This document shows, in pieces, positions 385 to 36,656 of a stretch of DNA of 37,756 nucleotides. The notes under the pieces are model-generated. The model searched no databases, had not been told where the DNA came from, and saw only the letters and a program-made list of their open reading frames with translations. The position numbers were made by a program, and so were the translations under genes. The stretch comes from Bifidobacteriaceae bacterium (lineage in GTDB: Bacteria; Actinomycetota; Actinomycetes; Actinomycetales; WQXJ01). Each line of letters starts with the position of its first letter. The first letter of the stretch is position 1. The stretch is from assembly GCA_031272885.1 (NCBI GenBank), contig JAISSX010000032.1, positions 1 to 37,756 of the forward strand. Direction: 5' to 3'.

Positions 385-513
385 GCGCGAAAGGTCAATT
401 CTGTTGCCGCGGGTGGTTTCGCTGACGGCATAGCCCCAGGTCAGGGCCTTGGCCACGGGTGCCGTTGGAAACGGAATTGACCTTTCGTGACGGGAAAGTG
501 ACCTCTCGCGAGG
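385..513 (-). repeat. Dispersed structured element, copy E1
   Basis: Read on the minus strand, this 129-bp segment matches the 129-bp copy at 35162-35290. The outer 40 bases on the left and the outer 25 on the right are almost identical (cctcgcga-aggtcactttc, then cgaaaggtcaattcc; right end caacagaattgacctttcgcgc in part). The centre keeps TGACCTG (plus-strand CAGGTCA at 437-443) and GCGAAAC (GTTTCGC at 416-422), 14 nt apart. The ends are complementary and would form a long hairpin. It ends about 77 bp before the start of the DUF554 gene. Confidence 0.75.
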
Positions 514-35043: not shown

Positions 35044-35100
35044 AAACAAAAAACGAGCGGTGACGCCCAACTGGTCTTACGTGGCTGGGCACCGCTCGTT
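35044..35100 (-). terminator. Intrinsic terminator in the 5' leader of the DUF2798 gene (attenuator or small RNA)
   Basis: On the minus strand AACGAGCGGTG (35100-35090) pairs with CACCGCTCGTT (35062-35052), extended inside by CCCA with TGGG. The stem runs straight into TTTTTTGTTTG, a classic Rho-independent terminator. It ends about 20 nt before the start codon and lies between the promoter and the gene. Confidence 0.75.
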
Positions 35101-35161: not shown

Positions 35162-35290
35162 CCTCGCGAAAGGTCACTTTCACGGCCCGAAAGGTCAATT
35201 CCGCGACTGTCGGGCGCCTGGCCCAACGCCGTGACCTGCGGTTATGCTCAAGGCGAAACGGTGGAGCGCAACAGAATTGACCTTTCGCGC
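35162..35290 (+). repeat. Dispersed structured element, copy E2
   Basis: 129 bp, the same length as E1 and in the opposite orientation. Left end CCTCGCGAAAGGTCACTTTC, then an internal second copy CGAAAGGTCAATTCC; right end CAGAATTGACCTTTCGCGC. The right end can pair with either left copy, giving two alternative hairpins. The core keeps CAACGCCGTGACCTGCG and GCGAAAC, 14 nt apart. It lies 132 bp before the start codon of membrane paralogue B. Confidence 0.8.
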
Positions 35291-36493: not shown

Positions 36494-36531
36494 CTAGCAC
36501 CGTTCTGGATGGCCATCTTCCCCCGCCCCTT

Positions 36532-36640
36532 CCTCGCGATAGTACGGTTATGTAGGTGTTTCGCTCAGAGTGAAATGCGTTTACGCAGGTCACAGCGTTG
36601 CCAGAAGTTGGCAGACCTACATAACCGTACTTTCGCGAGG
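36532..36640 (-). repeat. Dispersed structured element, copy E3
   Basis: 109 bp with 26-bp terminal arms (36532-36557 and 36615-36640) complementary at 25 positions: CCTCGCGA-AGTACGGTTATG, then TAGGT. On the minus strand the interior keeps CAACGCTGTGACCTGCG and GCGAAAC (plus-strand 36558-36564), as in E1 and E2, but 21 nt apart. The arms share only the CCTCGCGAAAG tip with E1/E2; the rest is different sequence that still pairs. It ends 16 bp before the -10 box of the rRNA methyltransferase gene. Confidence 0.8.
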
Positions 36641-36656
36641 AGAGGAGGGATCTCGG

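Follow-up and report, generated by a model that had tools for sequence, protein, structure and literature searches.

Two families of dispersed elements with inverted arms around a shared core in an actinobacterial genome: probable protein-DNA scaffolds

Anatomy and copy number of the elements

The window analyzed here is a whole contig of 37,756 nucleotides from an 81-contig, 2.95-Mb actinobacterial assembly (G000). It carries three short related elements, E1, E2, and E3, which the initial annotation had described as a fixed core between arms that change but still pair, and in which it had seen selection for structure. The question is what such elements are: structured RNAs, mobile palindromes, or sites of another kind. 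According to our analysis, all three are real and their arms are genuine inverted repeats. E2 (35162 to 35290, plus strand), used as a BLAST query, retrieved E1 (385 to 513, minus strand) as a copy with 76% identity, and the two have in common, as proposed, the arms CGAAAGGTCAATTC ... GAATTGACCTTTCG. In E2, the inner arm CGAAAGGTCAATTC (35188 to 35201, plus) and the opposite arm GAATTGACCTTTCG (35274 to 35287, plus) form an inverted repeat around the core CGCCGTGACCTGCGGTTATGC, placed by alignment at 35227 to 35247 (plus), with the core word listed at 35227 to 35239. Both elements carry the arm word a third time, as a direct copy at one end; in E2 this outer copy (35162 to 35181, plus) is a direct repeat 21 bp before the inner one. 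In E1, the outer copy CCTCGCGAGAGGTCACTTTC (494 to 513, minus) directly repeats the inner arm word, which is CGAAAGGTCAATTC on the minus strand (474 to 487), and is followed by the core GCCCTGACCTGGGGCTATGCC (428 to 448, minus, from the family A alignment) and by the opposite arm (388 to 401, plus) in inverted repeat. E3 (36532 to 36640, minus strand), delimited as a BLAST query and by its fold, is bounded by arms at 36531 to 36557 and 36615 to 36641 (both plus), whose reported self-complementarity holds over 27 nt at 96%; its core CGCTGTGACCTGCGTAAACGC was aligned at 36577 to 36597 (minus), with the core word listed at 36585 to 36597.

E1 and E2 belong to one family, here called A, and E3 to another, called B. 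The view that the arms change and yet stay paired is therefore borne out between families, where the arms differ and remain inverted repeats, but not by the comparison of E1 with E2. Similarly, a central block of the type YGTGACCTGCG fits E2 and E3, whereas the core of E1 deviates from its family type and reads CCTGACCTGGGG. A B element consists of an arm CTCGCGARAGTACGGTTRTGTAG, a spacer of about 16 nt, the core CAACGCYSTGACCTGCRNAAACGY, a spacer of about 24 nt, and the inverted arm. An A element places inverted CGAAAGGTCAATTC arms around a core of like type, CAACGCCSTGACCTGCGGTTATRCC, and has one more arm, in direct repeat, 21 bp beyond one end (beyond both ends in L006); relative to this extra copy, the core can be oriented either way. 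The core common to families A and B is CTGACCTGCGNNNAYGC, and elements of both families have inverted terminal repeats and no coding capacity. Two minimal A palindromes, L280 (G000:C11:9700-10300) and L279 (G000:C1:3400-4000), have no core, their arms being 24 bp apart.

When further copies were sought in the 2.95-Mb genome, the A-arm word GAATTGACCTTTC was found at 111 sites and the B-arm word ACGGTTRTGTAG at 89, with none for either reversed control, which corresponds to roughly 55 A elements (including E1 and E2) and 45 B elements (including E3). The tip CCTCGCGANAG, singled out in the initial annotation, occurs 127 times against 3 for its reversed control; when E2 or E3 served as the BLAST query against the genome, at least 40 copies of the respective family were scored, and 32 of the 40 core words in G000 lie inside A or B elements. 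E1 and E2, of family A, and E3, of family B, thus belong to a set of about 100 small noncoding elements dispersed through the genome.

Conservation of the arms as sequence

The arms are conserved as sequence and not as structure. Across 30 B copies, the 23 arm pairs show no compensatory change; 16 of the 23 are invariant, and the two pairs with the most variable columns, 8:102 and 18:92, are mismatched in 17 of 60 cells. In the A arms, two pairs have changes on both sides, no more than shuffles give. The mini-hairpin that can be drawn within the core (TGCG-NNNA-YGC) showed no coupling of variable positions among its copies in this genome, in other bacteria, or in viruses, and an Rfam scan at gathering and permissive thresholds returned nothing relevant. 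Compared pair by pair, B copies have on average 95 to 96% identical arms and an 82% identical core, with averages of 41% and 56% for the two spacers. In 152 of these pairs, identity is below 45% for each spacer and arm identity is still 95.5%, although these arm values may overstate the constraint, since copies were collected by their arm and core similarity and decayed ones are under-counted. The pairing of the arms follows from their being inverted copies of one putative recognition site. Selection for base pairing, as originally suggested, and the reading of the elements as structured RNA are not supported, since neither the arms within a family nor the core hairpin covary.

Helical phasing of arms and core

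The strongest single result of our analysis is that arms and core are spaced in phase with the DNA helix. Arm-to-arm distances in family A fall into four classes, 84 to 86 bp (n = 15), 95 to 97 bp (n = 7), 106 to 107 bp (n = 8), and 116 to 117 bp (n = 5), the exceptions being two core-less palindromes at 24 bp and one composite element at 327 bp. When periods from 5 to 25 bp were scanned, the best was 10.65 bp (R = 0.958), a value of R that none of 5,000 uniform draws reached (P < 0.0002); P rises to about 0.0008 if each of the four classes is counted only once. The distance from arm to core changes in the same way, in steps of 10 to 11 bp, through 33.5, 43.5 to 44.5, and 55.5 bp on the 5' side and, independently of that side, 40.5 and 50.5 to 51.5 bp on the 3' side. 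In L030, a reversed-core copy, it is 45.5 bp. Such steps recur with other arms in unrelated genomes, each represented by few copies: 30 and 40 bp in G142, 33 and 44 bp in G067, and 34 and 45 bp in Miniimonas arenae.

Lengths that step by turns of B-DNA are expected where proteins occupy a single face of the duplex, and not in a hairpin or an RNA, which further disfavors the structure reading; an arrangement with arm and core on one face would instead point to a protein-DNA scaffold.

Mobility and genomic setting

In nineteen pairs of B copies, spacer identity is 82% or higher, and, a few partial matches excepted, the flanks of the two copies resemble each other as those of unrelated copies do, with a similarity mostly between 0.2 and 0.45 at 11 to 60 bp from the element (mean of unrelated copies, 0.32). 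Since near-identical spacers are thus joined to unrelated flanks, B copies have moved or been copied as units, and the suggestion of a mobile palindrome, one of several made for these elements, is upheld by this finding. No direct repeat of 2 to 9 nt that could represent a target-site duplication was found beside the tips of B copies, and searches for the arm arrays in plasmids gave no match.

E1, E2, and E3 all lie upstream of a gene, as noted before, but this position does not extend to the families: by crude gene calls, B copies lie mostly 7 to 57 bp from a stop codon and often between convergent genes. Their left flank is rich in C and their right flank in G, a bias that decays over about 60 bp and may reflect a preference of the elements for rut-like 3' regions. 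These flanks were also considered as an extended stem, a possibility which we rejected, complementarity within elements barely exceeding that of shuffled flank pairings and doing so over the first 6 nt only (P = 0.04).

The core in other bacteria and in actinophages

In related genomes, nearly all matches to an A query were restricted to the core segment, and no B-like match was found at an E value of 1e-5 or below. The core itself is flanked there by other arms: CGAGTGTTTCAATTTATCTCC in G016 (JAITJY01, 'Bifidobacteriaceae bacterium Pcl387_bin30') and G010, CTAGGAGACTGTCGGACAAAGCCG in G008, and, in other families, CCTCGCTCTCTGCGGACGG in G142 and CTGTCCACGAGGGCGCCTCAGA in G067; among named genomes, Arthrobacter mangrovi has ACTGTCCACGTTTA and Miniimonas arenae TTGACTGGTC. 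One core between differing, self-complementary arms is therefore shared by further genera and families of the order, so that the pattern of a fixed core with family-specific arms, first seen in the window, reaches well beyond it. The arms are frequently present as direct pairs about 20 to 21 bp apart. Compared with its reversed control, the word CYCTGACCTGCGG occurs 120 times to 0 in G013, 42 to 1 in G016, 18 to 0 in G000, and 11 to 0 in G142; exact core matches outside these genomes are mostly without clear arms. The 120 cores of G013 are repeated in tandem arrays with a period of 158 bp (L086, L093, L119, and L131), each unit of which has a CTACACTTCTC..GAGAAGTGTAG hairpin.

Actinophages carry the core as well. 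At least 120 viral contigs contain the word CTGACCTGCGGAAACGC, in no fewer than 103 distinct contexts, compared with 2 for its reversal, a control that excludes a chance or coding word, and the B-type form CTGACCTGCGTAAACGC is present in 18 viral contigs. Among isolate phage contigs, the core lies less than 150 bp (47 to 138 bp) from a contig end in 12 of 22, where 0.16 would be expected by chance, the phages concerned being partly related to one another. Several mycobacteriophages have it 47 to 83 bp from a cos end, in several phages past an HNH-endonuclease gene, and in the records of TChen, Taj, Jabbawokkie, and Renaud18 the matches run to the last base. Other viral cores follow tRNA 3' ends (L333, L359, L378, and L411) or are near replicative helicase/primase or FtsK-like genes. 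About 15% of viral cores are enclosed by an inverted repeat scoring at least 10, compared with 1.6% of random places, an effect of this subset, since the whole range of scores gives no significant difference (P = 0.11). In many phage copies, arms are not recognizable, and the A and B arms were found in no viral contig.

Proposed architecture and alternative explanations

Arms and core are constrained while the spacers drift, distances change by whole helical turns, and copies are dispersed to unrelated sites; the elements have the appearance of docking sites for DNA-binding proteins and not that of structured RNAs. We consider it probable that E1 to E3 represent two families of dispersed double-stranded protein-DNA scaffolds with family-specific arms inverted around a shared core. 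Each would have two to four arms, all copies of one site specific to the family, inverted around the shared actinobacterial core CTGACCTGCGNNNAYGC. One protein may bind the arms and another, conserved widely, the core, the two assembling along the same face of the helix. Their joint complex would draw the arms together and serve the movement of the elements, which may spread nonautonomously, carried by a recombinase or transposase supplied in trans. The core-binding protein is probably a DNA-bending or architectural protein of the host, given that unrelated phages carry the core near cos and att.

The elements could instead be MITEs, that is, internally deleted forms of a conventional insertion sequence, with the arms as terminal repeats and an incidental core. 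Inverted terminal repeats, absence of coding capacity, high copy number, and movement agree with this, as do arm copies 20 to 21 bp apart, which recall the transposase-binding arrays of IS21-like ends. We nevertheless hold such an origin to be unlikely: a core kept across unrelated arm families is the opposite of what a MITE would show, B copies have no detectable target-site duplication, and the sole IS21 element of this genome, considered as a source of the arms, was discarded because its ends differ. Neither an arm pair at transposase length nor a gene enclosed by arms was found in G000 among the first 100 of the 111 A sites and all B sites, and no arm-flanked transposase, recombinase, or other gene was found in the complete genome G142, although in G000 a long parent may have been lost or left unassembled.

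Constraint on arms and core beside saturated spacers, helical phasing, and an intergenic position would also suit host regulatory or chromosome-organizing sites, such as operators, nucleoid-protein sites, or partition sites, amplified long ago and now immobile. This explanation, to which we assign a distinctly low probability, is at odds with recently copied sets in unrelated flanks, with the complete turnover of arms between genera of one family, and, in a small sample, with neighboring genes that have no common function. Least probable, and in our judgment very unlikely, is a structured RNA or bidirectional terminator working in 3' untranslated regions. The predicted folds are very stable (z = -11.9 for E3) and B copies mostly lie just past stop codons, but compensatory changes and Rfam matches are absent, the spacing is phased with the helix, and the core occurs both ways round relative to the outer arm.

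Relation to known systems

The closest known kind are the E. coli RIB/RIP elements (BIME-1), which, according to PMC2817692, citing Boccard and Prentki 1993, are extragenic, lie at the 3' ends of transcription units, and have an IHF site between two inverted REPs. The A/B elements appear to resemble them in architecture, two inverted units flanking a central putative host-factor site; the arms, unlike REPs, are 13- to 27-nt inverted putative protein sites with no internal hairpin, around a core that is unrelated to the IHF consensus and common to unrelated arm families across the order and to phages. REP/REPIN sequences are likewise high-copy extragenic palindromes, found mainly downstream of genes and thought to be dispersed in trans by RAYT (TnpA-REP) (PMC3733652). 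The A/B arms, however, lack a 20- to 40-nt hairpin with an unpaired GTAG/CGTC foot (the B arm ends in GTAG but forms no stem-loop), no RAYT was seen beside the elements among the listed arm sites, and the conserved central core sets the elements apart. With MITEs, Correia/NEMIS, and ERIC sequences they share short, noncoding, intergenic inverted repeats, but neither a target-site duplication nor a parent insertion sequence was found for them, and across families it is the core rather than the termini that is conserved.

In lambda cosB (R3-IHF-R2) and attP, helically spaced repeats specific to the element surround a site at which a host protein bends the DNA. The core close to mycobacteriophage cos ends recalls cosB; the lambda host site, however, is that of IHF, whereas the actinophage core is a putative host site and the arms would at most be candidate sites for terminase or integrase. 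IHF-like proteins of actinobacteria include mIHF and sIHF, and we know of no sequence-specific IHF-type site in Actinobacteria. ChIP-seq of mIHF yielded no motif (PMC6155035), and a direct link of the core to mIHF is not supported. More tentatively, and at somewhat less than an even chance, CTGACCTGCGNNNAYGC may be an order-wide, perhaps phylum-wide, site of an unrecognized host architectural protein, a counterpart of IHF, recruited independently by dispersed palindromic elements whose arms keep changing and by actinophages, the latter at cos, at att, and perhaps at replication sites; around this one host-bound core, each would build its own helically phased complex. If so, a 17-bp motif present in chromosomal elements and at phage packaging ends would be an IHF-type site and a direct route to the protein; it would explain why palindromic elements with unrelated ends are of one kind, and it would offer a concrete, mutable site for studies of mycobacteriophage packaging and integration. 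Searches of the open-access literature yielded no account of the core or the elements, and the exact core gave no relevant match.

Additional repeats and local features

The multi-copy word GGCGGACTCGATGA / CATCGAGTCCGCC, probably a third arm family, forms direct arrays at positions 1 to 95 of the window and within a 340-bp A element (L273, G000:C66:61900-62600). A palindrome, GTCATCCCGGACTTGATCCGGGATC, is present in the spacers of longer A elements (L007, L010, L019, L022, L023, L027, and L029), and another repeat, the word GCGCCATCGGGCAC, borders the ends of A/B elements L003, L011, L014, L022, L027, L039, and L043. The sequence ACCTGCGGT also occurs in 16S rRNA, at the 3' end of helix 45, a match deemed coincidental. 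At positions 35052 to 35100 of the window, on the minus strand, a GC-rich hairpin followed by TTTTTTG and an SD-like AGGAGG precedes an open reading frame starting at about 35026 and, judged by its sequence, looks like a transcription attenuator.
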